Assembly (NCBI GenBank): GCA_026995045.1
Contig: JALWPK010000203.1
Coordinates: 1-49,480, forward strand
From: Gammaproteobacteria bacterium
GTDB taxonomy: Bacteria > Pseudomonadota > Gammaproteobacteria > SZUA-229
DNA: 49,480 bases
Direction of reading: 5' to 3'
Position 1 is the stretch's first letter, and each line of letters begins with the position of its first letter. Positions 14,692-41,683 of the stretch are shown here, piece by piece. The notes under the pieces are model-generated. The model worked only from the letters and a program-made list of their open reading frames with translations, was not told the DNA's origin and searched no databases. The position numbers and the translations under genes were made by a program.

Positions 14692-16422
14692 TCATTGCAC
14701 CAGGCCTGAAGGACCTGGGGCCGAAAACAACAACGGCCGCGCGAGGCCTATATCAATGATATTAACCAGACCATCTCCGTTTACATCAGCACCTTCAGAT
14801 TTGGCTTTAAACAAGCTCCTGAACAGACCAATGTCGAGCACATTAACAAAGCCGTCATTATTATAATCCATATCGCATCTATTTCCGTATCCATCATTAT
14901 CACTGTCAAGTTGGCTCGGGTTGGCGACTTCTGAGCAATTATCACATATGTCGTAATAACCATCATTATCGGAATCTACAGTACCCAGTGGGCACCTGAG
15001 CTTCAATAAAGCTGTTTTTGCATCAACCAGACCATATCCATAAGCCTCATCACTTCCAAGCGTACCTAAATCAGTGGCTGAATACTTGATGGCAGTTTCC
15101 AACTCCATGACGCTGCTTGCGGGATCAGCGCTCTTTAACAAGGCCATCACTCCAGAGATATGAGGGGCAGCTAATGATGTGCCAGAAACGCCAGTATACG
15201 GATCAAGTAAGGAACCTAATCCAAATGACAAGTCAGTGGTATATATATTGACGCCTGGCGCCGAGATAGTGGGAAAGATATCACTACTACAAGGTGATGG
15301 CCCCCTTGAGCTGGAGCCCGCAACAACATAGAACTCATCAACTGAACCCGCGGAAACAACTTGACTATTCGTGGCGGGACTTGTTCCGCTTGACTGCCCC
15401 GGTCCTTCATTGCCTGCTGAAAAAACAACAGCAATATCCGCAGCTTTAAGAAAATCAATATCAGCACTAAATTCTGTATCGCATACTCCCACACTATTTA
15501 GTATTCCCCAGGAGTTATTGACGATATCAGGCATATCATCAGTAGATGGATCTCCATCAGGATCCAGCATCCACTGAAACGCGGCATGAATGCCGCTCAA
15601 TGTTGCGGTGCCATCATCCTGAAATATTTTTGCGGCAATCCATTGCGCATCCGGCGCAACGCCGATAACGGAGCCGGAAGTGTTTCCACCTACCATAACA
15701 CCCATGGTTTGAGTACCATGACCATTTGTATCATATGGCGTTTCCAACGTAGAATCAGCAATATACGGGTTATACCAGCTATTGGTTCCGCCACGCCAGC
15801 TATTAGCCAAATCCGGATGTTCGCCATCCACGCCCGTATCCATATTGGCCACAACGACGCCTGCCCCTGTATAGCCTGCGTCCCATAATTCATCCGCTTT
15901 TACCATCAGTAAATTCCACGTTGGCGAAGCGCCACCACTTGTTGGTGAATTCTGTAGCGTTATCTTTTTGTCAAGCTCCACCCTGTTGACGAACGGCAAT
16001 TTAGCAATGACATTAACAATTGAGACAGGCACTTCTACTGCTATGCCATTTATAAGCCAGAGATCACGGCTTTTGTTATTAAGATATTTTTTCAGAAATA
16101 ATCGCGCCAGAACCTGTCTGGACTTTGCGGTGCGAATAAGATCCTTGATATATTTCGTGCGGAGATTGCGCCTCGCAAGGCGTAAGGCTTTACGTTCACC
16201 ATCAGTCAGTTTGCCACGCTTCGCAGATAATTTTGCAGCAATATTAAGCAACGCTCCTTTATAGGACGCACTATTGAGCCGGCCATCAAAATAAATAATA
16301 ACCGGTACTGTACTCGATTGCCCATTGCTAATGGCGTCATACAGGCTTTGAGATACAGTCCCGGCATTGGCCAGACTGCCTGCCAGACTTAACGCCAGTG
16401 CTGCAATCATGTGTATTTTCAT
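14692..16422 (-). CDS. Secreted subtilisin-like (S8) protease with dockerin-like tail
   Basis: A 576-residue serine protease. The signal peptide is residues about 1-20 (ending SLANA), followed by an inhibitor-I9-like propeptide region (about 21-155). The S8 triad is visible: Asp195 (NMDTGVDGEHPD), His235 (NGHGTQT) and Ser416 (SGTSLAAPH), with the oxyanion Asn338 in SAGNEG. From about 482 come thrombospondin type-3-like calcium repeats (DSDNDGYYDICDNC), then two dockerin-like EF-hand loops (YNNDGFVNVLDIG and VNGDGLVNIIDIG), ending PGPSGLVQ. The tail is shared with two other proteins in the window. It lies 88 bases downstream of a cohesin-like gene on the same strand, so the two may be co-transcribed. 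It could process surface proteins or degrade external protein; the sequence does not decide. Confidence 0.92.
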   Translation of the reverse strand: MKIHMIAALALSLAGSLANAGTVSQSLYDAISNGQSSTVPVIIYFDGRLNSASYKGALLNIAAKLSAKRGKLTDGERKALRLARRNLRTKYIKDLIRTAKSRQVLARLFLKKYLNNKSRDLWLINGIAVEVPVSIVNVIAKLPFVNRVELDKKITLQNSPTSGGASPTWNLLMVKADELWDAGYTGAGVVVANMDTGVDGEHPDLANSWRGGTNSWYNPYIADSTLETPYDTNGHGTQTMGVMVGGNTSGSVIGVAPDAQWIAAKIFQDDGTATLSGIHAAFQWMLDPDGDPSTDDMPDIVNNSWGILNSVGVCDTEFSADIDFLKAADIAVVFSAGNEGPGQSSGTSPATNSQVVSAGSVDEFYVVAGSSSRGPSPCSSDIFPTISAPGVNIYTTDLSFGLGSLLDPYTGVSGTSLAAPHISGVMALLKSADPASSVMELETAIKYSATDLGTLGSDEAYGYGLVDAKTALLKLRCPLGTVDSDNDGYYDICDNCSEVANPSQLDSDNDGYGNRCDMDYNNDGFVNVLDIGLFRSLFKAKSEGADVNGDGLVNIIDIGLARPLLFSAPGPSGLVQ

Positions 16423-16510: not shown

Positions 16511-17278
16511 TTAACAGGCAGCTTTACGTCGAGCAATGCCAACCAGGCCAATCAGTCCACTGCCAAACAACCATACTGCCGCCGGCACGGGCACAACAGT
16601 GGCATTAGCAACACTGATCATCGCATCATTGAAATAGATGCTTGGTTCTCCATCCAGCGCGCCATGTCCGCAAGCACGCGTGCCGTTAGCATTAAACGTC
16701 TGCACGCCGTCAACACAATAATAAGCGGAAATCGTGGTTTGCGCACCAGTCGACGGCGGCGGTACAGCATCAGCAGTATAGGCAAAACCACCAATACCGG
16801 GATCAGTTTGCGTCGAGATATCCAGCAGCGTATCGCCAGCGCCGACAATATCAAAGCGAATAGACCCAAGCACTTGTGATGCAGGCATTGTGAATGATGT
16901 ACCAGTCCTGGAAACAAACAAATCAATCTGGCCAATAGTATTATCTACTGTAAACGACTTTTCAAAATCCCAGATTGCGGTAGCAAACTGATTAGCTCCA
17001 AATTGATCAAAGCTTGTTGTATTGACCGAAAGTACAGCAGGATCATAATTGATAATAATGCCGCCACCTTGGGTATAGAAGCTAAGATCACCATTAGTGT
17101 TAAGACCTTCCAGTAAATTGTTTGCAACAATGTCGATATCAAATTGTGCTGGCGCAGCAGCATTTGCATCGTATGAGAAATTGCCTGCGCCAACGATATC
17201 AATTGTGGCGGCATTCACACATGCCATACTCGACAAACCGGCAATTGCCAGTGCTGAGCGTAAGTTTTTATACTTCAT
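16511..17278 (-). CDS. Cohesin-like protein with VPLPA/PEP-CTERM sorting tail
   Basis: A 255-residue exported protein. Signal peptide residues are about 1-23 (ending CVNA). Residues about 24-165 resemble a cohesin-type beta sandwich: FDIDIVANNL, GGGIIINYDPAVLSV and LGSIRFDIVGAGDTLLDI follow the usual cohesin pattern. The C-terminus is VPVPAAVWLFGSG, a hydrophobic helix and ARRK, the tripartite signal recognised by exosortase-type sorting. No exosortase gene is in the window. AGGAG lies 7 bases before the ATG. Cohesin domains bind dockerins, and three neighbours have dockerin-like tails, so a surface anchor is a reasonable inference. The cohesin call is by pattern only. Confidence 0.75.
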   Translation of the reverse strand: MKYKNLRSALAIAGLSSMACVNAATIDIVGAGNFSYDANAAAPAQFDIDIVANNLLEGLNTNGDLSFYTQGGGIIINYDPAVLSVNTTSFDQFGANQFATAIWDFEKSFTVDNTIGQIDLFVSRTGTSFTMPASQVLGSIRFDIVGAGDTLLDISTQTDPGIGGFAYTADAVPPPSTGAQTTISAYYCVDGVQTFNANGTRACGHGALDGEPSIYFNDAMISVANATVVPVPAAVWLFGSGLIGLVGIARRKAAC

Positions 17279-18016: not shown

Positions 18017-19384
18017 TCATCTAACGCCACTTGGACCTGGTTGTTTGAAAAGCATACCTCTGAAGTAACCAATATCTAGGATATTCGTTCGACCATCCTC
18101 GTTGAAGTCGACTAATGGCACATTACCTTTCGCGAAAGCAGCCTTGAAAATGCCAATATCGAGAGTATTGGTCAAACCATCATTATTCAAGTCAGCATCA
18201 CAGCTATTACCAAAGCCATCATTATCTGTATCCATCTGCGCCGGGTTTGAAACCAATATGCAATTATCTTTGTGATCATATATGTTATCGCTGTCAGTCT
18301 GGAATCCCACTTCAAACAGACTCAACAGGCTTCCCGGTGAAGATTGAGTATCACCACCTGTACTGTTATTTAGAGTAACAACGCCACTGCCAGGCCCGGC
18401 TGGCGGTAGTCTGCGATTGGTCAGGTTAAGCATCCTATCGAATAACGGATAGCTGCCAACGGAAGTCGGCTTGAACAATACATCTTTTGTTTGCCCAGCC
18501 GCAACCATAACCGAGTACTGTTTTTTCTCATACGGGTAAGGGTGGCCATCTTCGGCGATGACAGTAACATACTCACCATGAACAAGAGGCATGTGCGTTG
18601 TCAACCCCATATTGATAAGCCTTATTAATGTTGTCTGGCCAGGCGCACCGCCTGCAAATGAATTAATATTAGAATCAGCACCGTTTATCAAAAAATAACT
18701 TGCCTGATAGTTGATAGTACTGGTGCTTGCGGGAGGCGTTCCATATGCACCGGTTGCGATTTCATCATGAAGCACCGGATCAACCTCACTGTATACGAGA
18801 ACAAGCTCATTATCATAAACAGTCGTAGCAGAGGGGTAGGCTTGCCCCGTGGCTGCATCATTGGTAACGACACCATATAATCCCATTTGAATTTGTACTG
18901 CAGGATGCGTACCGCTCTGGTATGCATATGTACCAGGTTGAATATTTGACCACGTATATGTGTTGGTGGCGCCATTTGCTGTTTCGTAGGTGAAGGAACG
19001 AACCCTTTGTCTTAATTCGGCATCCGGCGCACTCATAACTGGCGTCATCGTGGCGGGCTGTCCAGGGATAATTAATGAAGTAGGTTCAGGCAGCCCGTCA
19101 TTCAACAAGTGAATATTGAGTACGGACTCGCCTACCGGAATCACAATGGCCGGGCCAGGTACAGAAATAGAGTTTCCACCAGCCGGTGCGGCCGGGCAGC
19201 CATCTGCCAAATCATTATTGTCATCCTGAGCATACCCCCACATGGGTACGCTTGTTCCATCCGGCATTGGAAGGGACTCTTGACGGGCGCATAAATAGAC
19301 ATCTACAACAGCGTGCGCAGCCCCACTAACCAATGTTAAGACACTAAGGAACAGCGATGCTGATATGGATTGTTTGATATTCAT
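18017..19384 (-). CDS. Cupredoxin-fold multicopper-oxidase homologue lacking copper ligands, with dockerin-like tail (subunit C)
   Basis: A 455-residue protein, signal peptide about residues 1-25. Two cupredoxin domains align to multicopper oxidases, but the ligand motifs are replaced: TSIHWHG is TSLIIPGQ (102-109), YHSH is YQSG (155-158), HPFHLHG is THMPLVHG (263-270), and the final HCH is lost near FDRMLNL (315-321). It is unlikely to bind the catalytic coppers. Residues about 362-396 form thrombospondin type-3-like repeats, and two dockerin-like loops (DLNNDGLTNTLDIG, DFNEDGRTNILDIG) end in PGPSGVR. Start: GGAG lies 9 bases before ATG 19384; a GTG at 19402 is possible. It is the last of four closely spaced genes with the two copper-ligand-bearing proteins and the 1825-residue protein. 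I infer a structural or anchoring subunit. Confidence 0.85.
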   Translation of the reverse strand: MNIKQSISASLFLSVLTLVSGAAHAVVDVYLCARQESLPMPDGTSVPMWGYAQDDNNDLADGCPAAPAGGNSISVPGPAIVIPVGESVLNIHLLNDGLPEPTSLIIPGQPATMTPVMSAPDAELRQRVRSFTYETANGATNTYTWSNIQPGTYAYQSGTHPAVQIQMGLYGVVTNDAATGQAYPSATTVYDNELVLVYSEVDPVLHDEIATGAYGTPPASTSTINYQASYFLINGADSNINSFAGGAPGQTTLIRLINMGLTTHMPLVHGEYVTVIAEDGHPYPYEKKQYSVMVAAGQTKDVLFKPTSVGSYPLFDRMLNLTNRRLPPAGPGSGVVTLNNSTGGDTQSSPGSLLSLFEVGFQTDSDNIYDHKDNCILVSNPAQMDTDNDGFGNSCDADLNNDGLTNTLDIGIFKAAFAKGNVPLVDFNEDGRTNILDIGYFRGMLFKQPGPSGVR

Positions 19385-19420
19385 TACTTTACTCTCCTTC
19401 ACTTATTTATCCGCTGCGCA

Positions 19421-20698
19421 CTACGGGATTGGCACACCAGGAGGCTCTACAATCATCATAGTCATCATGCCGCCAGGGAATACGTCATCATTGGTCAACT
19501 CCTTCTCGTTATGCGAGTGCCACATAAAGAAAAGGCCGTTATTGAGGTTAAGCCCGCCTTCGCCAGGAGGTAAAGCTGCCGCGCCCCCCAGGAACGGACT
19601 GCCGCTATAGAAGCCGCCAAAAGTCAACTCAGTCAACTCTGGCAAGGTAACTGGAATGGGCTTGCCATGATCCGCGGCATATTCGTTTGGTTCAAGCGGG
19701 TCGCCTGGAGCATGACCGTACATATCCCAACCCAACCGTTCGCCTGTCCACGTCCATATTGCGTCGTAGGTTGCTCCAGGGTGTGTTTGCAACGTGTAGT
19801 CCGACACACTTAAATCCTCACCAGCTGGCCCCTCAAGTAAAATGCCGTCGCGAGCCACTGTCGTAAAATTGTTACCGTGCAAGTGGAAAGGATGCATATT
19901 GCGCCCGCCACCAATAACACGAATCAGTACTTTCTCTCCAGGGTGCATTCTGGCTAGCGAACTTAGCGGCTGATGTGGCATCCACTGTATATTATTGTCA
20001 AATACAGTGTCGGGCCCATTACGTCCGTTAATAAACCAGAGCGTGGGATGACTTACAGTGTTATCTACCTGATCCAGCAAACCGAATTCAGCCTTGATAT
20101 GCACTGCTGGATCCATTTCAGTAAGAACAAACAGATATTCGCGATCGTACGCACTTATACCAGAAGCATCATTGTACGCCTGCCCAGGTGTGGAAGAACG
20201 AACTATCAACGCTCCAACAAGTCCCATATCAATCTGCAACCCAGGCCTGGTTCCACTGTAGTATGTATATGTGCCGGGCTTGCCAGCAACAAAAGTATAA
20301 GTAACCACATCAGATGGCCCTGTGCTTTCAACAGTTAACAAGCCCATGTTATTGGCCGCACTTGTCGCTGTAACATTTAGTTGCCCTGGGAACAGCATTG
20401 AAGTAGGCATGGGCAAATCTATATTGGTAAGATTTATCGTAACCAGGTCGCCCTCATTAACAATCAATGTCGGGCCGGGATACTGCATCACCTTGCCGTC
20501 TATCCCATAGCCCCAAATCTGCAAACTGTTACCATCGGGCGTATCTATACTTCCCATTGATGCTGTCATATTGAATACAGGGTTGCCTGCAGCGCTTGTT
20601 TCACCCAATATTTGCGCATGGCCAATAGCCGCCATCAATAATAACACCGCCAGTGCGCCGCACTTCACCGTCAGGCTTCCAGTTCTTATACTTAACAT
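19421..20698 (-). CDS. Two-domain multicopper oxidase homologue, C-terminal copper motifs only (subunit B)
   Basis: A 425-residue protein with a signal peptide (about residues 1-28, ending IGHA). The N-terminal cupredoxin domain lacks copper ligands: TSMLFPGQ (99-106) in place of TSIHWHG, and YYSG (146-149) in place of YHSH. The C-terminal domain keeps the trinuclear-centre motif HPFHLHG (269-275) and the last motif as WHSHNEKE (393-400), where serine replaces the type-1 copper cysteine, followed by FPGGMM. So it can offer histidines for half of a trinuclear centre but no type-1 copper. AGGAGG precedes the ATG. It lies 12 bases after subunit A and 36 before subunit C. Alone it should not be a complete oxidase. 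Confidence 0.9.
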   Translation of the reverse strand: MLSIRTGSLTVKCGALAVLLLMAAIGHAQILGETSAAGNPVFNMTASMGSIDTPDGNSLQIWGYGIDGKVMQYPGPTLIVNEGDLVTINLTNIDLPMPTSMLFPGQLNVTATSAANNMGLLTVESTGPSDVVTYTFVAGKPGTYTYYSGTRPGLQIDMGLVGALIVRSSTPGQAYNDASGISAYDREYLFVLTEMDPAVHIKAEFGLLDQVDNTVSHPTLWFINGRNGPDTVFDNNIQWMPHQPLSSLARMHPGEKVLIRVIGGGRNMHPFHLHGNNFTTVARDGILLEGPAGEDLSVSDYTLQTHPGATYDAIWTWTGERLGWDMYGHAPGDPLEPNEYAADHGKPIPVTLPELTELTFGGFYSGSPFLGGAAALPPGEGGLNLNNGLFFMWHSHNEKELTNDDVFPGGMMTMMIVEPPGVPIP

Positions 20699-20710
20699 TA
20701 GCTCATCCTC

Positions 20711-21961
20711 CTATGGCGTTGCAGCAGATATTCTGATTTCTGTCATCATGCCGCCGTAGTCTTCATCACGATTACTGAGGTAATTGAGATTAGACGTATA
20801 CAAAAAATATGTGCCTGGTGGCACACCAGCTGTATCGATGATGACGTCAATTGCCTCACCACCGCCGAGTGTCACAGTATTTGTCTTGTAGTGATGCACA
20901 GTATTATCAGCACCACGGAGTTCGCGCGCGCCCATGCCCACAACTGTCATATCCAGCCCCAGTGTTTTCAGTGAGAAGAAGTCGACTACATTTAGATTTG
21001 ATATGCGCAACAATATCTTGTCGCCGGCAACAGCCTCTACAAGAGCGTTCTCTATCTGGGAATTAAAGCCACCATTTTTTGATGGCGCGGGGATAGATGC
21101 CTGCACGGTATCCGGATAGCCTCGACCATTCAACATGGGATATGTGGATTTCATATTTGCAAACGGGATCGGCTGAACAACCTCATGCAAATCATGGAAT
21201 TCACCATCAAAAGCGCCTATCTGGATAGCTTTCTCAACCTGGTAAACGGTGCTGCCATCGCCATCATTATATGCATACCGATCACCCGCCTGGTGCACAT
21301 ATCCACCTATTGAGGCGCCTACTGGCGTTTTGTCCTGCGCCGAATGCACATAAAGATTACCCAGCATACCCATTTGCATGTGTTCGGCAGCCTCAACATG
21401 GCAGTGATACATGTATGTACCGGGTTCGACAATATTATAATAATACGTAAGTGAGTTACCTTCATTGATCGCAATACTTGCATCTGGCACACCGTCAAAG
21501 AAGGCTGATGCGTTCGGGAAGCCATGAAAGTGCACGGTATGAGGGTCGGACAAATCCGGCCGGATCAACATGCCGACATTGGTTAGCGTCAAGTAAAGCT
21601 CCTGCCCCTCTTCCAAAACAATTGCTGGCGCTGGAAACATCGCCGCCAGTGCGCCAGCAGCAAGAACATCACTTTCGGGAATACCCGTCATATTACCAAA
21701 ACTGAATAGATATGATTCGGTTCTGTCAGCCATCATTGTAAAGCCATCACCAGCGCTTAGATGTATACACTTCACATTTGGATCATAATTAGCGCTGCCC
21801 GGATCCGGGACACCATCACTTCCTGGCGTGACTCCATCTGCCAGAAAATTGTCGCCTGGGCACTGTATATATGCATTAGCGTAAACGCTCCCACTAATCA
21901 GACTCACACCTGTGAGTATGGAAGCAATTGAAGTTTTCAGATTAAGTATTTTCATAGTCAT
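20711..21961 (-). CDS. Two-domain multicopper oxidase homologue, N-terminal copper motifs only (subunit A)
   Basis: A 416-residue protein with a signal peptide (about residues 1-30). The first cupredoxin domain keeps HTVHFHG (141-147) and YHCHVEAAEHMQMGM (185-199), supplying four histidines for a trinuclear centre plus the type-1 ligands Cys187, His194 and a nearby methionine. The second domain has lost both C-terminal motifs: VVDFFSLKTLG (325-335) and GTYFLYTSNLNYLS (383-396) have no ligand histidines. This is complementary to subunit B. AAGGG lies 6-7 bases before ATG 21961; ATG 21955 is also possible. Two-domain laccases place the trinuclear site at the interface between domain 1 of one subunit and domain 2 of the next, which makes an A-B pairing plausible. 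Confidence 0.9.
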   Translation of the reverse strand: MTMKILNLKTSIASILTGVSLISGSVYANAYIQCPGDNFLADGVTPGSDGVPDPGSANYDPNVKCIHLSAGDGFTMMADRTESYLFSFGNMTGIPESDVLAAGALAAMFPAPAIVLEEGQELYLTLTNVGMLIRPDLSDPHTVHFHGFPNASAFFDGVPDASIAINEGNSLTYYYNIVEPGTYMYHCHVEAAEHMQMGMLGNLYVHSAQDKTPVGASIGGYVHQAGDRYAYNDGDGSTVYQVEKAIQIGAFDGEFHDLHEVVQPIPFANMKSTYPMLNGRGYPDTVQASIPAPSKNGGFNSQIENALVEAVAGDKILLRISNLNVVDFFSLKTLGLDMTVVGMGARELRGADNTVHHYKTNTVTLGGGEAIDVIIDTAGVPPGTYFLYTSNLNYLSNRDEDYGGMMTEIRISAATP

Positions 21962-22003: not shown

Positions 22004-25000
22004 TTACTGCGCCAATCCAGATGGCCCTGGCGCCTTAAATAACAATGGGCGAATCAGGCCAATATCAATGATGTTAACCGCACCATCTCCATTGATATCC
22101 ATATCAGGATCACTGCTGGCAAAGGCATTGCGCATCAAGCCGATGTCCAGCGTATTGGTAAAGCCATCATTGTTCAAATCACCGTCACAGAGATTACCGT
22201 AACCATCTCCATCCGTATCATACTGGCCTGGATTTGCCGCCAGCGAGCAATTATCAAAGATATTCGGTATGCCATCGCCATCCACGTCTACAGCTGATAG
22301 CGCTGTGACTTCATCTGCGCCAATGTCGATGCTGCCGCTTGATACTGGTCGACTATCACCATCAAAGTCATCTCCAAGCGCCGCAATCGTATTGACGGAT
22401 GTTGCATCTGCAGCATCAATTGCAGCTGAATCCGGTCTCAAATGATAGTTCCCGCTAAGCGACAGAGGACCATAGTGCACATCGACGAAATTACCACCTT
22501 CATCAAGGGCGGCAGCCGTGCCGATGTTTGCAACAACGGTTTGTTCCTGCTGTATGACGGTCTGCCCCCGATCACCATTGAAGTAATCCAGAATAAAGCC
22601 AGGATCAACTGATAAGTTCGTAGCGCTCATACCTGCGCTCACAGTTGTCAGGATATTATTTGTAGGGTTCAAGCTGCCGGCGCCAAGCACACCCAGATCA
22701 CTGAAAACGGGGGCAGCGCCACCAGCAACATCCGGCAACAGGCTGAACTGCGCGGGACCGCCTGCGACAAGGATGACTTCCCAGGAGAAAGTTCTGTTTT
22801 CCCAAATGATATTATTGTCGATTAACGGGTCGGATATAGCCTGACCAGAATTAGCAGCAAGTGTGGCACTATGCGGCTCGGAAACAATACCCGCACCAGG
22901 TTGTGCAGTGGATGAATTTGTCACCGGGTCGAATAGATTGCCTACAGTGGCAGTAGCGTCATTATGCGCAATAGTATTGTGTACAATCCTTACCTTTGCT
23001 GCATCCTGCATCCCAATACCCGCGCCAGTCCATCCTGCAACGTTGTTCACAATGATATTGTCGAAAATATCAATGCTACTCCACAATGACTGGTCTGCGG
23101 GATTGCTGGCGACATCCTGACCATTTATCAGTGACAGATAAATACCACCACCATGACCCGCGCCCGCAAGGTTACCCTGAATAAGGTTACCCTCTATGAG
23201 TACACTGCCAGATCCTGTTGTTTCACGCAGTGCAAGCCCGGTCTTTCCACCAATAAACAGTCCACCACCATGCACGTTTATCCCCTGGCTAAAGGACTGG
23301 TTGAAGGCAATAGTATTATTGGCGATGACGCCACCGTCACTGTAGCCAAGATGCCCAATACCACCACCGTTACGTTGCGTGAAGTTTCCACATATATAGT
23401 TGTTACTGATTTCGTAATTGTCCGCACCGGTGTATATGCTAATACCACCACCTGTGCCCATCATAGAACCATTTTGCAGAACCTGGTTATATCTCACCTT
23501 GATATTGTCATTACTGGAATCTGTATGCGCCAGTACGCCACCAGTCTGATCGGTCAATGTGGGGCTGCCAATTCTCAGGCCACCACCGTACGTACCAGCA
23601 TTGTAGACCAGCCGGTTATTACTGATAATCATATCGTCTATATAACCGTTCACAAAAATTCCGCCACCTTGCACAGCGCCCGCAATTTGCAACCCGTCAA
23701 TTCTCGGATTTGTGCTGGCGTTAAAGTTGCCGGATGATTTGCCCACTACAATAATGCCCGGCCCTTCCTCAGCATTGAAGCCAGCCTGTCCGGGGACAAG
23801 GTCAAATTTACCCGCTATCAGCCTTGCATCAATTTCCGCCCGCCAGGCTTTTAGTTTTTCTGGTGGCGTTCTGGCCGCGGTAATATTGGAAACGCCAGCC
23901 CCCCATCCCTGTAGCTGTACGGGGTGATCCATAATAACCAATTCGTTATAAGCGCCAGGACTCACCAGCACCATATCACCATCCTGCGCAAGATCAATCG
24001 CATCCTGTATAGGCGTGGCGCCAGCAATTGTGGTTGGCGAAACCCTGATGATCTGCGACTCCGCAAGATCTGTTGTCACATATATACCACGGGGAGAAGT
24101 CCGACCATTATTCGCCGTCACTGTTAACTGGCCGGAAGGCGTACCAAGTGGAACAGTCGCAATGATTTTGCTATCGCTCCAGGAAACAACGGGTAGCTCA
24201 ACCCCATCCATTTCAACAACGCCCGCTCCCTGAACATCCCCAAAACCATAGTCCCTCGCAATGGTAGCTGGCTCGCCGGGCAAGCCAAACCGGGAGTTAG
24301 GCACATCAACCATACCTTCAGAAATTATTTCAATATTCCTGCCTTGCGGTAATGCCGTTCCAACAGGGAATACTGGCCCCTGGTTACTGGCAGATGCATA
24401 TTTAATCATCGGATAATGATCAGGCGCTTCACAATCAACGGGGAACTTGCCTGTACCTGCAAATGCAGCCACGGGAACAACAGGCGTATCCAGATATGTT
24501 GTCGAACCCGGCATATACTGGAAGGTGTAACAGAATGTGCTGAATTGAGGGTTATAGTAAGGATCATTGATAAACAATGAAGACGCCGGATCCAGAGGAT
24601 CATAATTCGGGTTTTCTACCGGACTCGGATCATTCATGCACGCCTGCAGCATGTTTGGCGACATACCGGTCGGGCTTGGCACATTCACAGAGTAAGTTGA
24701 TGGCAAGATAGCTTCAAACTTGCCGAACTCATCCGAATAGGTTTTCTTGATAACTTTACCCGTCCAGTCGCGGAATGTGATTGGCACCCAGGGCGGTGCA
24801 AATTTTTCACCAAAGTTAGGGTTATTAGGGTCAAATTCATTCGCCAAATCGTTAAGAATACCCCCCACAACATGCGCGCCGATGGGTACGTCAGTAAACA
24901 GGAAGAAATCAGCAGCCGCATTCTTGCCTGCGGTTAGCGCCACCTGCTTGCGATCGCACAACGGACGCGCAGTGGAGCCAGTCGGATCATAAAACGGAGA

Positions 25001-27481
25001 CTCGATTGGATTTGCTGCATAAGCGGGCAGCAGCGCGCCGTTTTCATCTGTTTGAAAACTCAAATATTGCGGCACAATATGCGGGTCGCCCACACACACT
25101 GGCGGCAACTGGGCCGGCAAGGTGTATTCCTGGCCGAAATCCACATTCTTGTCTTCTTCTTTAAGCAGTTTGTAGCCTTGCGGCACTGTTGTTTCGACAA
25201 TGTAGTAACCTGCAGGCAAACCTTGCAATTCATCACCTGTTGGCGCGCCTGACGAGTCGCGAGCAATCCGCGAGTCGAAAGCATAGCCACCATCAAACAC
25301 AGCTTCACGAATCTGGTTAAAATTGCGCAACCCGTCATAGCAATCCAACGTGTTCTCGATACTGGTGCCAGGGTTGGCGACAAAAGGCGTACCTTTGCAC
25401 CCTGTCGGCAGAGAATCATCCCAGCTATCAGTCCAGGTTACCTGCACGGCATCCCCATAATCAAACACCCCTGGTGTGCCGTTATCTACATCACCGACAC
25501 CCGGAAAATCTCCGAGCGGGTAGTTATCTACATCGGCCAATGTGACGACACCATCCTGATTAAGGTCGTCAATCACTCCATCGTTGTCGAAATCCTCGTA
25601 CAGATTAACCTGCACACGCGCGATACCCGGCTCCCATTCCTCACCTGCCGCATATCGCGGATCATCTTCCGCACGCGTGATGGCATAGAGAACCATCCCG
25701 GTAATACCGCCATTACCGTGATCGTATTCCCCATCTCCATCATTATCGATGTCCTCAGGCCCCGGGAATGTATTTGCAACAAGAGGATCCGCAGGGGCAT
25801 TATCGACATCTGCAACCGGGTAATTGATCTTGCCCCAGTCGATGCGATTGGTCATACCCAGAAAACCCTGAAAGCCTAATGTCAGAACCGGGCCTGTCAA
25901 TGTTGTCGACAGATCATCACCCGTATTCGGGTTGATCACTCCCTGTGGTTGCGGGTTTAACAAACCGATTGTAGGAATAGACAAGCCAGCATCTACCAGT
26001 GTTGGATCGCCGCCGTCATCGACAACATATGTTGCGCCAGTAGCTTTAAACCTGGCGAAATCAACTTCAGCCACCAGCCAATGGAAGAACGGAAAGACCT
26101 CATCGAAAGGCACAGCCCCTTCCAGATCGGTCGGGAATGACTGATAGATTGTGCCATTGCGGAACCGTATATTGACAGCCTGCTCCGGTATCCCGATCTC
26201 GCCAGCATCCATAAATCCGTTTTCGTTGGCATCATAAAATACATTGGATTCAAGACGATTAAACCATGCAAATATCGGCACATTACCCAAATTCAAACCA
26301 ACCGGATTGGCGGGATTTGTCGCAGTCGGGCCATGCGTAAATGTACGTTGCGCAATTACATAGTCCAGGTTGATATCCCAAATCACCAGATCATATGTAC
26401 CTGCCGGCACCCCTGGTATTGAGAAACTGCCATCATTTGCACACGGCCCCGCATAAATCGCTTCGCCCCCGGCTGCCGCCGTCTTGTTAATACCTACCCA
26501 ACACCCACCTACTGTTGTACCAGGATAGAATCCAACCTCAGGAGGACGCGCCATATGATTACTCACCACAGTCCCACTGATCGTTCCGCTACTGCCTCCA
26601 GGAGGCAATTCACTGGCAAGATTATTGAAAGGCTGAATAAAACCAACAAAAACATGCGGGCCTGGCGGACCGAATTCGGCAAAGAATGCCGGCTCATTGG
26701 CTTTCACCCAAGCATCAATGACCGACGTGCCCTCAATCGTGGAAGTTTGCACCCAATTCTGTCCAGCAGGCGGAACAACAATGATGCCGTACTTCGCTGG
26801 CGGTAGATTTTTGATTGTTACAAAGCCATCCGGCCCCGGATTGACGAATCCACTACCCAAGCTAATCACATTTCCAGCCGCATCATACTCGGTTCCCAGG
26901 GGATTACCGTAGGCATCCTGTATGATCTGGCCGCCTGTATGGCCGTATCGACCACCCGCCTCTTCAACGTAGATTTTGAAATCTTGCACATTCGGCATGA
27001 TATTCTGCGCTTCTTGCGGATCATCCGGCGCGCCGTTTATTGGATTGTTGTCGTGGAAAACCCTGACTGTTATCTGCGCAGTTGGCGTCGGCTCTGATGT
27101 CACAAAGGCGGTTGCGGTGCTTGCGCCTATCTCAACAGACGCCCCGCCCAGACTGTAGTCGCCAAATGGCAGTACGGATATAAAATATTTTTTTGCCGCG
27201 CCAGGATCGGGAGGCGTGATAACACAAGGTGAAGTTGTACATTCTCCTGAGGCCAGCACGGGTGAATAGCTGTTATGGAACGTCATGGAGATAGACTCGA
27301 ATGCGCTCAGCCCCGGTATCACATCCTTGGTTTGATCTTCCTCAAGTAACCACTTATAGCCATTAACTATGGCGCCATTTTCATCCTGTACGGTCAGGTC
27401 AATGGCATGCGCATTTAACGCGATTGGTAAGACAACAATAGCGACATACAGTCTGGTCAACACCTTGCGTACGATATCCAT
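22004..27481 (-). CDS. Giant secreted beta-helix protein with dockerin-like tail (1825 aa)
   Basis: An 1825-residue exported protein, signal peptide about residues 1-26. The first thousand residues hold several SdrD-B or carboxypeptidase-regulatory-like beta domains (SSGTISGTVVSNHM, FYDANENGFMDAGEIGI, LPAGYYIVETTVPQGY), with calcium-loop-like inserts (DFDNDGVIDDLNQDGVVTLAD). An IPT/TIG-like domain follows (about 1120-1190). A right-handed parallel beta-helix, rich in repeats such as ISNNYICGN and GGGI, occupies about 1210-1640. Then comes a choice-of-anchor-Q-like segment (SAAIDAADATS, IDIGADEV), thrombospondin type-3 repeats, two dockerin-like loops and the terminal PGPSGLAQ. It heads the operon with the three cupredoxin genes (gaps of 42, 12 and 36 bases). 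GGTGG lies 7-11 bases before the ATG. A structural surface scaffold is inferred; no enzyme motif is seen. Confidence 0.88.
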   Translation of the reverse strand: MDIVRKVLTRLYVAIVVLPIALNAHAIDLTVQDENGAIVNGYKWLLEEDQTKDVIPGLSAFESISMTFHNSYSPVLASGECTTSPCVITPPDPGAAKKYFISVLPFGDYSLGGASVEIGASTATAFVTSEPTPTAQITVRVFHDNNPINGAPDDPQEAQNIMPNVQDFKIYVEEAGGRYGHTGGQIIQDAYGNPLGTEYDAAGNVISLGSGFVNPGPDGFVTIKNLPPAKYGIIVVPPAGQNWVQTSTIEGTSVIDAWVKANEPAFFAEFGPPGPHVFVGFIQPFNNLASELPPGGSSGTISGTVVSNHMARPPEVGFYPGTTVGGCWVGINKTAAAGGEAIYAGPCANDGSFSIPGVPAGTYDLVIWDINLDYVIAQRTFTHGPTATNPANPVGLNLGNVPIFAWFNRLESNVFYDANENGFMDAGEIGIPEQAVNIRFRNGTIYQSFPTDLEGAVPFDEVFPFFHWLVAEVDFARFKATGATYVVDDGGDPTLVDAGLSIPTIGLLNPQPQGVINPNTGDDLSTTLTGPVLTLGFQGFLGMTNRIDWGKINYPVADVDNAPADPLVANTFPGPEDIDNDGDGEYDHGNGGITGMVLYAITRAEDDPRYAAGEEWEPGIARVQVNLYEDFDNDGVIDDLNQDGVVTLADVDNYPLGDFPGVGDVDNGTPGVFDYGDAVQVTWTDSWDDSLPTGCKGTPFVANPGTSIENTLDCYDGLRNFNQIREAVFDGGYAFDSRIARDSSGAPTGDELQGLPAGYYIVETTVPQGYKLLKEEDKNVDFGQEYTLPAQLPPVCVGDPHIVPQYLSFQTDENGALLPAYAANPIESPFYDPTGSTARPLCDRKQVALTAGKNAAADFFLFTDVPIGAHVVGGILNDLANEFDPNNPNFGEKFAPPWVPITFRDWTGKVIKKTYSDEFGKFEAILPSTYSVNVPSPTGMSPNMLQACMNDPSPVENPNYDPLDPASSLFINDPYYNPQFSTFCYTFQYMPGSTTYLDTPVVPVAAFAGTGKFPVDCEAPDHYPMIKYASASNQGPVFPVGTALPQGRNIEIISEGMVDVPNSRFGLPGEPATIARDYGFGDVQGAGVVEMDGVELPVVSWSDSKIIATVPLGTPSGQLTVTANNGRTSPRGIYVTTDLAESQIIRVSPTTIAGATPIQDAIDLAQDGDMVLVSPGAYNELVIMDHPVQLQGWGAGVSNITAARTPPEKLKAWRAEIDARLIAGKFDLVPGQAGFNAEEGPGIIVVGKSSGNFNASTNPRIDGLQIAGAVQGGGIFVNGYIDDMIISNNRLVYNAGTYGGGLRIGSPTLTDQTGGVLAHTDSSNDNIKVRYNQVLQNGSMMGTGGGISIYTGADNYEISNNYICGNFTQRNGGGIGHLGYSDGGVIANNTIAFNQSFSQGINVHGGGLFIGGKTGLALRETTGSGSVLIEGNLIQGNLAGAGHGGGIYLSLINGQDVASNPADQSLWSSIDIFDNIIVNNVAGWTGAGIGMQDAAKVRIVHNTIAHNDATATVGNLFDPVTNSSTAQPGAGIVSEPHSATLAANSGQAISDPLIDNNIIWENRTFSWEVILVAGGPAQFSLLPDVAGGAAPVFSDLGVLGAGSLNPTNNILTTVSAGMSATNLSVDPGFILDYFNGDRGQTVIQQEQTVVANIGTAAALDEGGNFVDVHYGPLSLSGNYHLRPDSAAIDAADATSVNTIAALGDDFDGDSRPVSSGSIDIGADEVTALSAVDVDGDGIPNIFDNCSLAANPGQYDTDGDGYGNLCDGDLNNDGFTNTLDIGLMRNAFASSDPDMDINGDGAVNIIDIGLIRPLLFKAPGPSGLAQ

Positions 27482-29815: not shown

Positions 29816-30433
29816 ATGCATAATTTTATTTATACTATCGTATTATTAGCACTGATATCTGGCGACAGTCTTGCCACTGATAATCCAGATCCTCATGCCC
29901 ATCATAGATCCATGATGAATCAAAAAGCGGGGTATCAGGTAGGCCACGCAGATTACCACATCCCCGATGTTACGCTTGTTGATCAACATGGAGTAAAACA
30001 CAACCTTCCTGAGCTGTTGACCAATAATAAGCCCGTCATTGTCAGTTATATTTTTACGACATGCACTACAATATGCCCTGTGTTAACCGCAACCCTGGCT
30101 TCAGCATATAATGATTTGAGCGAAACAAATCCAAGCCCGACCATAGTCTCCATCAGCATTGATCCACAGGAGGATACACCAGCAAAATTACTGGAATATG
30201 CTAAAAAGTATGGTAAGCGCAGGGATTGGTATTTTCTCACAGGCGATCCAGGATCGATTGAGATAACGCAACGATCCATGAATGCATATCGTGGCAGCAA
30301 ACTCAATCACGCACCTCTGACATATATAAAACCCCCATCCAGCTCACACTGGGTAAGGATAGAAGGCTTTACCAGCGCAGGCGCATTAGTAAATGAATAC
30401 CGTAATGCCATCACAGAACAACATGCTAAATAG
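29816..30433 (+). CDS. SCO1/SenC-family copper chaperone
   Basis: A 205-residue thioredoxin-fold protein with a signal peptide (about residues 1-20, ending DSLA). The copper-binding motif is CTTIC (Cys83 and Cys87), and the third ligand of the family is probably His165 in KLNHAPLTY. An N-terminal HAHH stretch (27-30) may add metal affinity. SCO proteins deliver copper to cytochrome oxidase or other cuproenzymes, or act as thiol-disulfide reductases. GGAG lies about 7 bases before ATG 29816. The next gene overlaps its 3' end. Its position beside three multicopper-oxidase homologues suggests it loads copper there. Confidence 0.93.
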   Translation: MHNFIYTIVLLALISGDSLATDNPDPHAHHRSMMNQKAGYQVGHADYHIPDVTLVDQHGVKHNLPELLTNNKPVIVSYIFTTCTTICPVLTATLASAYNDLSETNPSPTIVSISIDPQEDTPAKLLEYAKKYGKRRDWYFLTGDPGSIEITQRSMNAYRGSKLNHAPLTYIKPPSSSHWVRIEGFTSAGALVNEYRNAITEQHAK

Positions 30434-32075
30434 CATTCACTACCGTTGTCTTAGCGCAATCCTGCTGTATGGTATCGTCAGCGTTATTAACGCAACCACA
30501 TTGGATGCCAAAAATATTAATCCCGGAAAAAATATTTATCTTAATGGCATCCTGGCGTCAGGCGAAAACTTGCAAGCCGTGTTGCGCAAAGACGTTACGA
30601 TAAGTGGCGAGCAAGCCGCATGCGTCAACTGTCATCGTAGAAGCGGTCTTGGTACAACCGAGGGCCAAACTATAGTAATGGATATAACCTCCCGCACCCT
30701 GTTCTCGGACATCACATTAAAAGCGCGCAGGTACTTGCAATCAGAATCAAACGGTGCAACGCTCGAGCGCCCTGCCTACACACATAGGCTTCTCAAGCAA
30801 GCCATAGTTCAGGGGATTCGCTCAAATGGCAAGCCATTGAACCATACAATGCCTCGCTACACTTTGACAGACCATGACTACAATAACTTATTCACATATT
30901 TGACAACTTTGTCATCAAAACCCAGCGAAGGAGTAACAGACAAGGTATTTCATATCGCAACAATTATAGATACAGCCGCACCGGATGAAGAGATACACGC
31001 CATGCAGCAGGTTATCACGCAGTATGTTAACGAATATAACACGGAGACAAGATACGAAAGCAAGCGTGTAAAGCATGCGCCAATACAAAAAGAATGGCAC
31101 TACGAAACATATCGAAAAATTCAACACCATTTTTGGCTAATCGACACGGACATCAATCAATGGAGGAATCAACTTGATAGATATTATATGTCACAACCTG
31201 TATTTGCAGTCATCAGCGGGCTAAGCCATAGAAGCTGGGGCGCCGTGGATGCGTTTTGTAACGATTATGCATTACCCTGCATATTCCCTACTGTTGATCA
31301 TCCTGATGCATCCTCAAATAATTATTACTCACTATATTTCTCCAAAGGCATCGCCCTGGAGGCAGAGGCGCTTGCAAAGCACCTGCAAAAACAGGCATCA
31401 AATAACCCAATACATGTACTCCATTTAATAAATGACAAATATGCCAATGATAAGGCGCCAGGCATTATTACGAACAGCCTGTCTCATAATAACAATATCA
31501 AGCTTGAGCGCCGGATTATTTCCAGCACTGACACAGGACACAAGTCCACCCCTGGTGATGATTGGGACTCATATGACGCCATCATTCTATCCCTGTCAAA
31601 CACTCAAATCAGCGAGCTTGTCAAGAAACTGAATTCACGAGGCAACACAAATCAAACACAATATTATGCCTTTTCAAACGCCAAATTTGACAAAGGCATT
31701 ATTGATGCGGTTCGGCAATTAGATCTCAATTTCTTTATTGTGTCCCCATACGTTGATCAAACAATGCAGAAGCGAAAAATGCTACGTGCATCTGTATGGG
31801 CAAAATCAAGAAAAATTGATATCAAATACCCAAGGATTTTGTCGGATACTTTTACCGCTTTTATGATTGCCGGTAACGCTCTGCGGCATTTACGGGGAAA
31901 CTACTATCGGGATTATTTACTGGAACTACTTGAGCACAAGGTAGAACGATCAGTTGTATCATCATTATATCCTCAACTTACTATCGGCCCAGGTCAAAGA
32001 TATGCCGCAAAAGCATGCCGGATAGAAAAAGTCAGCGACTCATTTAACGCAGTTACACCCTGGATAGCACCATAG
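30423..32075 (+). CDS. Cytochrome c domain fused to a periplasmic-binding-like domain
   Basis: About 550 residues. An N-terminal hydrophobic segment (LSAILLYGIVSVINA) is a signal peptide or anchor. A single c-haem site CVNCH (Cys67, Cys70, His71) lies in a class-I cytochrome-like domain of about 120 residues, with MPRYTLTDHDYNNLFTYL as the likely methionine-ligand region and terminal helix. The remaining 400 residues resemble a type-1 periplasmic-binding fold (VFAVISGLSHRSWGAVDAFC, YYSLYFSKGIALEAEALAKHL, DSYDAIILSLSN). I chose ATG 30423, overlapping the SCO stop codon; ATG 30393 is also in frame. A redox sensor or an electron acceptor for the oxidase are both possible. Confidence 0.8.
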   Translation: MLNSIHYRCLSAILLYGIVSVINATTLDAKNINPGKNIYLNGILASGENLQAVLRKDVTISGEQAACVNCHRRSGLGTTEGQTIVMDITSRTLFSDITLKARRYLQSESNGATLERPAYTHRLLKQAIVQGIRSNGKPLNHTMPRYTLTDHDYNNLFTYLTTLSSKPSEGVTDKVFHIATIIDTAAPDEEIHAMQQVITQYVNEYNTETRYESKRVKHAPIQKEWHYETYRKIQHHFWLIDTDINQWRNQLDRYYMSQPVFAVISGLSHRSWGAVDAFCNDYALPCIFPTVDHPDASSNNYYSLYFSKGIALEAEALAKHLQKQASNNPIHVLHLINDKYANDKAPGIITNSLSHNNNIKLERRIISSTDTGHKSTPGDDWDSYDAIILSLSNTQISELVKKLNSRGNTNQTQYYAFSNAKFDKGIIDAVRQLDLNFFIVSPYVDQTMQKRKMLRASVWAKSRKIDIKYPRILSDTFTAFMIAGNALRHLRGNYYRDYLLELLEHKVERSVVSSLYPQLTIGPGQRYAAKACRIEKVSDSFNAVTPWIAP

Positions 32076-32094: not shown

Positions 32095-32562
32095 TTATAG
32101 AACTATCATATCAGGCAACGTGAACTCGCCTATTTTTACCGTTACTTTCTCGCCTTTTTTTACACGCATACCAGGGTTTGCAAAATACATGAAATATTGC
32201 CTGCCTTTTTTAACGAAGCGTGGCGACTGTCTTAGCACACCAATTTTTTCAGACGCGGGGACTTTTAATTGACTATTATCCAGATCCCGAATAACAACAG
32301 GGATAATTTTTTTATCAAACAGGAGTTTTGACTTTTCGATATCTGTCACTCGAAACCGGAAATCAAGCATGTAGCCAGCGGCTGTTAACCGTATAACAGG
32401 GTCTTTTATTCCCCAGTATTCGTATATTTCAACAGGCTTTGTGTTTTCATCAACACATGGCAACTCACAATTATCATGTGGCCCACATGCGCCCAGCACT
32501 GCAATCAGCAACGCGACCAATATGAATCGTAACCAATAACAGCACATAGGAGGCCTAAGCAT
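32095..32562 (-). CDS. Conserved-type lipoprotein of unknown function
   Basis: About 155 residues. A hydrophobic signal segment ends in the lipobox VLGAC, so it is likely acylated and membrane-bound. The mature part looks all-beta: LDFRFRVTDIEKSKLLFD, IGVLRQSPRFVKKGRQYFMYFANPG and KKGEKVTVKIGEF. No function is known to me. The start is uncertain: ATG 32562 overlaps the end of the upstream cohesin-like gene, and ATG 32547 lies 7 bases after its stop. Either suggests translational coupling with that gene. Confidence 0.7.
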   Translation of the reverse strand: MLRPPMCCYWLRFILVALLIAVLGACGPHDNCELPCVDENTKPVEIYEYWGIKDPVIRLTAAGYMLDFRFRVTDIEKSKLLFDKKIIPVVIRDLDNSQLKVPASEKIGVLRQSPRFVKKGRQYFMYFANPGMRVKKGEKVTVKIGEFTLPDMIVL

Positions 32563-33715
32563 TCCGGTTAATTGCAATAAGAGCAAGGATTGCAAACAGC
32601 ATCGCCATGCCAACGGAAATATATAGACCGATACCAGTATTGCCCTCCTGTGGTATATATGATTCATTCACGCTTGCATCTTCCTTGTCTTCACTGTAGC
32701 CATATTGTTTTTTGCCCGTGTTACGACTATCAGCCGCATTATCGCTATACCCGCCTGGCGATTTAATATCATCGCTTCCAACCTCATCAATATGATTTGT
32801 GTCGCGTCTTCCAGGCATTGCTCTTGATGCTGACTGTGATTGTCTATCAAGCCAGGGGGCGCGTTCTTGACGATTGCTGTAGTTCGCCGAGAGGATCGCT
32901 TCATGCGTATCTGCACCCCCCTCTACCGTTTGATCCGTCTCAGCTATCTTATCCGCTTTTTCCCCCGCACCTGAATTCAGGTGCGCAGTATTTATGAGTA
33001 CCAGGTTATTACCCGTTGTACTGGCTGCTACATTTTGCTTGTTTGAATTCGGCGCATTCGCTTCCTTGGCTACTTGCCCACTGGCCTTGTTATCCTGCTG
33101 ATTGCTCTTGTTGTCACCTGTATCACTGATAGTAGTATCTTGCAGCACGGAATCTGTCGCATCCGTTGCTGCTGTAGTGTCTGTCGATGTCTGTGTATCA
33201 GCAGCAACGCCAGTTTCGGCATTCTCCGTGTTCGGTTGATTGCTCTGTACAACAACAGATGAAACTTTGTTGTTGATAGTCACGGGTATTACCCCGTTTC
33301 CATCCGCGAATGGATTAGCATCAGACTCCGCAACGACAATATTGGAAGCCCCCTCGCCTATGGCAACGACTTGAATGGTTGCAACCGGAATATTTCCTTC
33401 CAGGCCATTAAAATGCGAGAAAAATATATCCTTCACCTGGCCCCGGTTATTATCAATAATGCCGCTTCGATTAACAAAACTCCACGCTGGGCTTATCTGT
33501 ACAGCGGTCACTTTTATGACCTTCTGGTTATAGAATACATTTACACCTCCACCGTGTGTGGTGGGGAAATTGACCAGATCGATAGTTATGCTGGCTGTAT
33601 CACCGATATTTAAATTTGGTGAATTTATATCCACAGCCACTTCTGCAGCGAAACTGTTAAAAACACTCGCAAATAAAAATATACCAAATAATAACAATCG
33701 CTTATAACATTTCAT
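32555..33715 (-). CDS. Membrane-anchored protein with N-terminal cohesin-like domain
   Basis: A 386-residue protein. The signal peptide is about residues 1-23 (ending NSFAA). Residues about 24-150 fit a cohesin-type sandwich: VDINSPNLNIGDTASITIDL, GGGVNVFYNQKVIKVTAV, then IPVATIQVVAIGEGASNIVV and a closing PVTINN strand. A low-complexity region rich in T, D, N, S and Q (about 155-350) acts as a linker, and a C-terminal transmembrane helix (GLYISVGMAMLFAILALIAI) ends in NRNA. The layout of cohesin, flexible stalk and anchor suits a receptor for dockerin-tailed proteins. It is coupled to the lipoprotein gene. Confidence 0.75.
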   Translation of the reverse strand: MKCYKRLLLFGIFLFASVFNSFAAEVAVDINSPNLNIGDTASITIDLVNFPTTHGGGVNVFYNQKVIKVTAVQISPAWSFVNRSGIIDNNRGQVKDIFFSHFNGLEGNIPVATIQVVAIGEGASNIVVAESDANPFADGNGVIPVTINNKVSSVVVQSNQPNTENAETGVAADTQTSTDTTAATDATDSVLQDTTISDTGDNKSNQQDNKASGQVAKEANAPNSNKQNVAASTTGNNLVLINTAHLNSGAGEKADKIAETDQTVEGGADTHEAILSANYSNRQERAPWLDRQSQSASRAMPGRRDTNHIDEVGSDDIKSPGGYSDNAADSRNTGKKQYGYSEDKEDASVNESYIPQEGNTGIGLYISVGMAMLFAILALIAINRNA

Positions 33716-39260: not shown

Positions 39261-40088
39261 ATGAATTCACAGACATCGAGCAGCCTTTTCAATAAAATCA
39301 GCCGCTATTTTTTCAGCAAACTGTTTACCTTGCTTGTTACAGGATTGCTGATTTATGGCTGGTCGCGCCGCGATAGCAACTATATCACAGCGGAGAGTGG
39401 AGTCGGCTATCTGTTGGGCATCGTTGGCGGCAGCCTGATGCTGGTGCTGCTGCTGTATCCGCTCAGCAAACGCAACCGGCTGCTCAACCGTCTTGTTCCG
39501 CTGCGCTTCTGGTTTGGTTTTCACATGTTTCTCGGTGTGGTCGGGCCGGTCATGATTCTGTTCCACGCCAACTTTCAGCTCGGCTCGCTCAACAGCAACA
39601 TCGCCCTGTTCAGTATGATTATCGTCGCCAGCAGCGGTTTGTTCGGGCGGTATTTTTATACGCACATCCATCACGGTCTGTACGGCAGACGCATTTCATT
39701 GCAGGAACTCAAGCAAAACCTCGCATCCGAGCATAACAACCTGTTCTCAGATGAAAGCCTGGATGATAATTTTCGCAGCCGGCTCGATGCTATTGAACAA
39801 AAAGTCATGGAACCCTACAGCGGGGTATTTGCGTCTCTCTCACATGCCATGCTGCTGGCGGCGAGCGCGCGCCGCATCAAAAAGCGCCTGACAGAACAAT
39901 TCAGGAATACTGAAGATTACGCCCGAATCAAAAAAGAAGTCGCCCGCTACGTGCTGGCCCTGAGGAAAATCACCGCATTCAAACTCTACGAAAGACTGTT
40001 TTCACTGTGGCACCTGTTCCACCTGCCGCTGTTTTTTATGATGCTTATTACTGCCGTGGTGCACATATTTGCTGTGCATATGTACTGA
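39261..40088 (+). CDS. Polytopic membrane protein, possible b-type cytochrome
   Basis: A 275-residue protein with about four hydrophobic segments: LFTLLVTGLLIYGW, VGYLLGIVGGSLMLVLLLYPL, FWFGFHMFLGVVGPVMIL and FMMLITAVVHIFAVHMY at the end. Histidines occur within or next to them (GFHMF, LFHANF, HIHH, LWHLFHL, VVHIFAVH), as in proteins that bind b haems. A charged middle part (about 150-235) is probably cytoplasmic. No family is certain; ferric-reductase-like or cytochrome b-like are the best guesses. The TGA overlaps a possible ATG of the next cytochrome gene, so they are co-transcribed. Confidence 0.75.
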   Translation: MNSQTSSSLFNKISRYFFSKLFTLLVTGLLIYGWSRRDSNYITAESGVGYLLGIVGGSLMLVLLLYPLSKRNRLLNRLVPLRFWFGFHMFLGVVGPVMILFHANFQLGSLNSNIALFSMIIVASSGLFGRYFYTHIHHGLYGRRISLQELKQNLASEHNNLFSDESLDDNFRSRLDAIEQKVMEPYSGVFASLSHAMLLAASARRIKKRLTEQFRNTEDYARIKKEVARYVLALRKITAFKLYERLFSLWHLFHLPLFFMMLITAVVHIFAVHMY

Positions 40089-40105
40089 TGGAGACCCTGT
40101 TCCGA

Positions 40106-41674: not shown

Positions 41675-41683
41675 ACGGAAAAC

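Follow-up and report, generated by a model that had tools for sequence, protein, structure and literature searches.

Two-domain multicopper oxidases (MCOs) that carry their type-1 copper in domain 1, such as PDB 3g5w and also PDB 2zwn, which we take to be of the same kind, are homotrimers, and to our knowledge every chain of the two-domain oxidases of known structure carries the whole set of copper ligands. In the ring formed by ceruloplasmin, domain 1 lies beside domain 6, and in laccases the trinuclear cluster is held between domain 1 and domain 3. Here, we describe a locus of a Gammaproteobacteria bacterium (assembly GCA_026995045.1, contig JALWPK010000203.1, positions 1 to 49,480, the whole of which is called the window below) in which three adjacent genes, A, B and C, encode two-domain cupredoxin proteins and the ligands of a single oxidase site are divided between A and B. 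We consider it probable (about 0.82) that the three products form a secreted A-B-C heterotrimer, with one type-1 copper in A and one trinuclear cluster between A domain 1 and B domain 2, in which C closes the ring and a further protein, D, together with C, tethers the enzyme. A heterotrimer of A, B and C with a single active site was the core of the original prediction for this locus, and it stands as the best explanation on the evidence of a conserved split, of co-occurrence and of a structural model. Such an active site could exist only at the contact between two different gene products, two of three former sites having decayed, and would represent a natural complementary loss that makes a heteromer obligatory.

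Division of the copper ligands between A and B

The genes A, B and C are open reading frames (ORFs) arranged head to tail on the minus strand, with gaps of 12 bases between A and B and 18 bases between B and C, and D sits 42 bases upstream of A:

22004-27481, minus strand: protein D, 1825 amino acids, proposed scaffold, with an SdrD_B domain
20711-21961, minus strand: subunit A, a two-domain cupredoxin of 416 amino acids (ORF and Pfam)
19421-20698, minus strand: subunit B, a two-domain cupredoxin of 425 amino acids (ORF and Pfam)
18017-19402 with a GTG start, or from the ATG at 19384, minus strand: subunit C (ORF and Pfam)

Each of the three subunits scores above the cut-off of one or more Pfam multicopper oxidase models, and a signal peptide can be recognized by eye in A. 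The motif positions, re-read from the DNA, are as follows:

21521-21541, minus strand: A motif HTVHFHG, with H141 (type-1) and H144 and H146 (trinuclear)
21365-21406, minus strand: A motif HCHVEAAEHMQMGM, with H186 and H188 (trinuclear) and C187, H194 and M197 or M199 (type-1)
20222-20263, minus strand: decayed type-1/HCH place in B domain 1, YYSGTRPGLQIDMG, from alignment and DNA reading
19874-19894, minus strand: B motif HPFHLHG, with H272 and H274 (trinuclear); H269 is likewise conserved
19511-19519, minus strand: B motif HSH, with H394 and H396 (trinuclear) and S395 in place of Cys

The type-1 and trinuclear roles given here to the histidines of A and B are assumed from alignment to PDB 3g5w and from what we know of the family. 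The ORF list and the DNA agree with the gene and motif places first reported for A, B and C, and motif reading confirms that A has only the N-terminal motifs and B only the C-terminal ones, with serine for the type-1 cysteine. Domain 1 of A contains the type-1 site and four trinuclear-site histidines and domain 2 of B contains the other four, such that A and B jointly, and neither of them alone, have all the type-1 ligands together with the eight trinuclear histidines, a sum that had been proposed at the outset and is borne out by the alignments. A complete ligand set is absent from the equivalent places in A domain 2, B domain 1 and C. The claim that C keeps none of the motifs holds for complete motifs but not for single residues, as lone histidines (H270 and H275 in THMPLVHG) are retained at its former ligand places. 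Likewise, B domain 1 has a histidine where the old HCH motif began (the second position of YYSGTRPGLQIDMG) in 22 of the 46 rows of the alignment described below, and given these leftover histidines, both places appear to be ligand sites that have decayed.

All four motifs can be read in the one chain of PDB 3g5w. A aligns with domain 1 of that protein (PHTIHWHG, YHCHVNVNEHVTM) and B domain 2 with its domain 2 (VHAIHTHG, MIHDHV), the latter in two pieces that are weak alone (independent E-values 0.012 and 0.12), and from these alignments A and B together would rebuild one site of the single-chain oxidase. Automatic annotation is likely to label A and B as separate oxidases.

Conservation of the split and of the gene set

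One scan of a genome collection with A as query provided 46 loci (L034-L079), some of them closely related (L041 and L047 are near copies). When the four motifs were counted in plus-strand frames of at least 100 residues, 42 of the 46 loci were found to have the A motifs and the B motifs complete but in different reading frames, and at the other four (L070, L075, L076 and L077) this reading is interrupted by contig ends. The three-gene set thus recurs in other genomes with the same residue losses, and none of the 46 loci has an A or B homologue with all four motifs in one frame, as a homotrimeric two-domain MCO would have; a four-motif relative at L093, discussed below, is not an orthologue of A or B. 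The A and B sequences were aligned in 80 rows from 46 sources, namely the window, 39 of the 46 scan loci (leaving out L034, L047, L064, L070, L075, L076 and L077) and six further stretches (L094-L099), again with some closely related rows. Across all 46 rows, neither the A ligands nor the first B motif varies, and the HSH motif of B is likewise invariant in all 45 rows with letters at that place, with serine always replacing cysteine; such constancy speaks against a split by chance. The B orthologue at L075:579-3464 carries two insertions, one ahead of and one between its ligand motifs. Invariant columns per 100 number 26.7 in A domain 1, 18.2 in B domain 2, 17.6 in B domain 1, 16.2 in A domain 2, 11.9 in C domain 1 and 4.3 in C domain 2. 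By their record titles, the loci come from Pseudomonadota (26), Thermodesulfobacteriota (10), Myxococcota (3), Nitrospirota (2) and Acidobacteriota (2), with 3 unassigned, and the A-B-C gene order is kept across loci of at least five phyla.

A, B and C also occur together. In a sample of 96 genomes that includes the source genome, strong A matches (E below 1e-90) were found in the source genome and 6 others, B in 6 of the 96 and C in 5, and the differences are due to contig ends: in one genome (G039), A is partial where a contig begins, and in another (G017) the contig stops inside B. Among 397 genomes of the phylum, searched for A and B, each gene was found in 2, the same two genomes, one of which (G296) has D-A-B-C on a single contig. 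Except at contig ends, A and B, which a shared site would need together, were therefore found apart in none of the 96 relatives or the 397 phylum genomes. C comes after B in the ABC loci wherever the contig continues. The source genome has a second copy (92% identity), in the stretch G000:C230:1-20000 (L094), where much of the region recurs at 78-91% DNA identity. With syntenic flanks at that same 78-91% and a draft assembly with 6.49% contamination, we rejected L094 as a paralogue and read it as a near-strain duplicate, probably from a co-binned close relative.

Fusions involving D extend the set beyond the three genes first described. D and A share one open frame at L044, L048 (partial D), L053, L060, L073 and L076, and C and D do so at L052, L054, L065, L067 and L079, suggesting that D physically contacts both ends of the A-B-C set; D thus belongs to that set, which refines the original prediction. 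No A-B or B-C gene fusion was seen in the loci examined for order and fusions, and the set consists of three ORFs, not the one chain of a ceruloplasmin-type six-domain MCO. The Pfam scan of D returned NosD, TSP3 and dockerin matches below threshold in addition to SdrD_B, while C consists of two decayed cupredoxin domains followed by a TSP3-dockerin-like tail. Judged by eye, the C tails of many other genomes are TSP3-dockerin-like or made of repeated adhesin-like stretches, and at L039 and L063 C has hardly any tail. We propose that C and D serve as the anchor and scaffold of a surface enzyme. An S8 peptidase encoded at 14692-16422 of the window has a TSP3-dockerin-like tail resembling those of C and D, and an S8 peptidase comes after the ABC set at L035 too.

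Predicted assembly and competing explanations

AlphaFold2 models were made as single read-through chains, with the stop codons read through. The A+B+C chain runs from A31 to C370 and was modeled from a 90-row alignment with checked placement, in which 40-64 N-terminal residues of most single C rows are still placed on B; it replaced an earlier 109-row alignment in which B and C rows fell on the A region. The A+B+C chain was predicted with a predicted local distance difference test score (pLDDT) of 84.2 and a predicted template modeling score (pTM) of 0.87, and A+B alone with a pLDDT of 86.9 and a pTM of 0.87. The three subunits are thus placed together confidently in the predicted complex, as the heterotrimer proposal would have it, though in a ring order that appears opposite to the chain order of ceruloplasmin.

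Packing was judged from Foldseek superposition scores in the best 50 rows for each model. The 18 top rows for A+B+C are all six-domain chains (factor V/VIII, ceruloplasmin and MnxG), with template modeling (TM) scores of 0.17-0.24 and root-mean-square deviations (rmsd) of 32.6-37.5 Å, and full-length alignments to ceruloplasmin reach TM scores of 0.20-0.24 at 33.7-34.0 Å. Since a ceruloplasmin-like succession of A, B and C should give a high score, these matches point to like folds in an unlike arrangement, and the predicted model does not have the ring arrangement of ceruloplasmin. Three-domain laccases fit the predicted A+B+C chain better over about 800 columns, with a target-normalized TM score (TMt) of 0.71 and an rmsd of 12.4 Å for 2xu9 (797 columns) and a TMt of 0.59 for 1aoz (838 columns). 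Among the best 50 rows for A+B, the alignments to 1aoz, 6klg and 2qt6 cover 820-833 columns at a TMt of 0.58-0.65, and 27 laccase-type alignments cover 541-644 columns at 0.40-0.49, with one (6vow) at 0.54. As the number of matched residues is at least the TM score times the target length, the 2qt6 alignment spans at least 646 of the 816 model residues, which only a run that starts in A domain 1 and reaches B domain 2 allows; the same bound for 1aoz (592) and 6klg (603) does not force such a run. Considering where laccases hold their cluster, A domain 1 and B domain 2 appear, from these superposition scores, to face each other in the relation of laccase domains 1 and 3.

Under the heterotrimer model, A, B and C would be secreted and would form one ring of six cupredoxin domains from three diverged paralogues, as two-domain homotrimers do, and the contact of A domain 1 with B domain 2 would be the only one of three inter-subunit interfaces with copper ligands. 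The type-1 copper would be bound in A domain 1 by H141, C187, H194 and M197 or M199, and the trinuclear cluster would be held by H144, H146, H186 and H188 of A with H272, H274, H394 and H396 of B. Electrons would pass from an outside donor to the type-1 copper and through the HCH bridge within A to the cluster, where O2 would be reduced to water. C would close the ring and, with the giant D, tether the enzyme outside the cell, and SCO1 (NosL in some genomes) would probably deliver the copper. We infer copper content, O2 reduction and secretion for this enzyme, and our guess at the donor, Fe(II) or an iron mineral for example, is led by the magnetite proteomics considered below. The copper chaperone genes nearby and the distant pair families that split their ligands alike lend further support.

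Several observations weigh against this model. The gene set is also found in records named for families of sulfate reducers, a trait that we presume these families to have and one that is unexpected for an enzyme reducing O2. The superpositions behind the proposed interface site have an rmsd of 10.9-13.9 Å over whole laccases, and 2xu9, the best match for A+B+C, reaches a TMt of only 0.49 over 569 columns with A+B, where a shorter alignment was chosen. The read-through chains tether the subunits in one order, which may bias the packing. Finally, A+B is predicted as confidently as A+B+C, so that the place of C in the ring rests on the trimer model, on family knowledge and on gene conservation. 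This last point would also suit a working enzyme made of A and B alone, either as an A:B dimer or as an A:B:B ring, with C a separate anchor and a decayed cupredoxin by chance. The distant pair loci have only A-type and B-type genes in the stretches read, and C is the least conserved subunit and often bears tails that look anchor-like by eye. We nevertheless think such an enzyme unlikely, because C holds its place after B, both of its cupredoxin domains are kept and the A+B+C chain attains the same pTM.

The nature of the site itself also bears on the choice. B domain 1 matches NirK chains (best E 1e-11), a match to TIGR02376 is far below cut-off, and the decayed GTxPxLQ stretch of B is similar to the part of NirK aligned with it, all of which would fit a NirK-like nitrite reductase in place of an oxidase reducing O2. 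These NirK-like domains are, however, the decayed ones, and whereas NirK has a three-histidine type-2 site in place of the trinuclear set, the live interface of A domain 1 and B domain 2 has all eight trinuclear-site histidines, making a reductase very improbable. The same residues tell against a view in which A merely binds copper, as a type-1 blue copper protein or otherwise, B stores copper or has a structural role, and no trinuclear site is shared between them. Although each subunit is indeed without half of a normal site, a blue copper protein needs no H144, H146 or H188 and B would need no four oxidase-placed histidines, yet none of the eight varies in the rows compared (46 or 45, according to the motif); we give this view the least credence of all.

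Distant relatives, neighboring genes and known systems

The ligand split extends to more distant relatives. Of the 14 weaker A matches among the relatives read (L080-L093), 12 are at pairs of two-domain genes, and 11 of these 12 pairs show the same split, with an A-type gene carrying the domain-1 motifs and a B-type gene carrying the domain-2 motifs. Against the generality of this pattern, the A-type gene at L091 shows no HxxHxHG, and at L087 the 9.6 kb up to the contig edge contain two genes of A-type but none of B-type. L093:7612-9150 is a single two-domain gene with all four motifs and 28-36% identity to A; it is placed beside A in the tree (96/88) and possibly gives a picture of the undivided ancestor. 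Export signals were examined by a simple scan for twin-arginine translocation (Tat) motifs and hydropathy, not by a signal-peptide program. A Tat-like motif was found in 10 of the 11 B-type pair genes examined, while 11 A genes of the p and q pair types have no Tat motif and low hydropathy values of 0.45-1.23, against 1.42-1.97 in ten Tat-bearing B genes. This distribution fits co-export of a ready-made heteromer and suggests that A-type proteins of the p and q types may be exported as hitchhikers, though at L082 both genes look Sec-like and a Tat motif is absent from each, which argues against its generality.

A tree of 60 rows, left unrooted, places each of A, B, C, pair A-type and pair B-type on one side of a branch, with B and C grouping with the pair B-type and A with the pair A-type and the single-gene relatives. 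C as the sister of B (97/91) is not a firm placement, as a clade of B and the pair B-type is not rejected (approximately unbiased test, p-AU 0.333). A clade of A, B and C is not rejected either (p-AU 0.0954), and independent splits in the triple and in the pairs may therefore have occurred. As a tentative and rather doubtful scheme, an L093-like homotrimer with three sites might have decayed stepwise to an A:B:B ring with one site, in which a signal-less A-type protein rode out with a Tat-signal B-type partner; a spare B might then have become C, giving an A:B:C enzyme tethered to D as a surface oxidase for solid iron minerals.

Three neighboring genes of the window belong to families that recur at other ABC loci:

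29816-30433, plus strand: SCO1/SenC copper chaperone, with homologues in 9 other ABC loci
30393-32075, plus strand: cytochrome c-like protein with one CXXCH and a sub-threshold Pfam match, with homologues in 8 other ABC loci
32095-32667, minus strand: small lipoprotein-like protein, by homology, with a homologue shortly downstream of C in 19 other loci

The lipoprotein-like gene of the window sits beyond D, unlike its relatives close to C; another member of this family lies at L035:11784-12290, and neither of these two has a Pfam match. Among 51 sources (the window included, some near copies), 20 have the lipoprotein family, 10 have SCO1, 9 the cytochrome and 5 NosL, and type II secretion gene families occur in up to 7; these neighbors, with the tails of C, point to a copper enzyme outside the cell. 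Two adjoining multiheme cytochromes at 40007-43141, with 21 and 17 CXXCH motifs, possibly form an extracellular electron conduit. The proteins at 16511-17278 and 32555-33715 look cohesin-like by eye and lie near the proteins with dockerin-like tails (C, D and the S8 peptidase), one having a VPLPA-CTERM tail and one a C-terminal hydrophobic segment. These cohesin-like readings found no Pfam support, and for 32555-33715 no PDB match.

No heterotrimeric or split-site multicopper oxidase was found in the literature searched, which covers few subscription papers; in the excerpts available, the heterotrimeric enzyme of PMC10367259 is a CO dehydrogenase and PMC8301774 concerns a nitrate reductase. 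The original statement that no described case of this arrangement was known thus stands, within that literature, for the split site but not for the gene cluster, a match to which is already in print (PMC12016527, PMC5566968, in the portions available). In Sideroxydans lithotrophicus ES-1, the available text reports higher abundance of Slit_1812-1818 on magnetite than on Fe(II)-citrate, regards the motifs of Slit_1817 and Slit_1818 as canonical, describes Slit_1816 as larger and without them, and mentions comparable clusters in further genera (PMC12016527). The accessible part of PMC5566968 likewise describes three tandem MCO genes in ES-1, and the window gene at 30393-32075 looks like the mofC-like gene of that paper, a name that we infer. 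At the Sideroxydans locus in our set (L069), A, B, C, SCO1 and the cytochrome are present and the small lipoprotein-like family was not found.

Compared with MCOs of the 3g5w type, A domain 1 and B domain 2 align with domains 1 and 2 at the ligand places and would form the same interface site, but whereas each 3g5w-type chain has all the motifs and the trimer three sites, here, with the halves in separate genes and just two live domains out of six, a single site is to be expected. Like ceruloplasmin and MnxG, A, B and C together have six cupredoxin domains, as the full-length Foldseek alignments indicate; unlike those single chains, they are three chains whose proposed site would bring together domains 1 and 4, counted in gene order, and their predicted model does not superpose on the ceruloplasmin arrangement. 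The set also resembles, by description in the part of the text available, the extracellular MofA/OmpB-type oxidases, in which a secreted oxidase lies beside a cytochrome (MofC) and a copper chaperone (SCO1) (PMC5566968). By published description the set is also like the ES-1 cluster, which has three tandem cupredoxins, of which one is without the oxidase motifs that the other two carry, together with SCO1/SenC, a cytochrome and small proteins, and for which the available portions of PMC12016527 and PMC5566968 propose no split or shared site and no heterotrimer. From gene content and order in these partial descriptions, Slit_1818, Slit_1817 and Slit_1816 would correspond to A, B and C, with Slit_1816 perhaps a C joined to more domains. 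If the magnetite cluster is indeed the same, it would encode one oxidase in two halves and a spacer, not two proteins with oxidase motifs.

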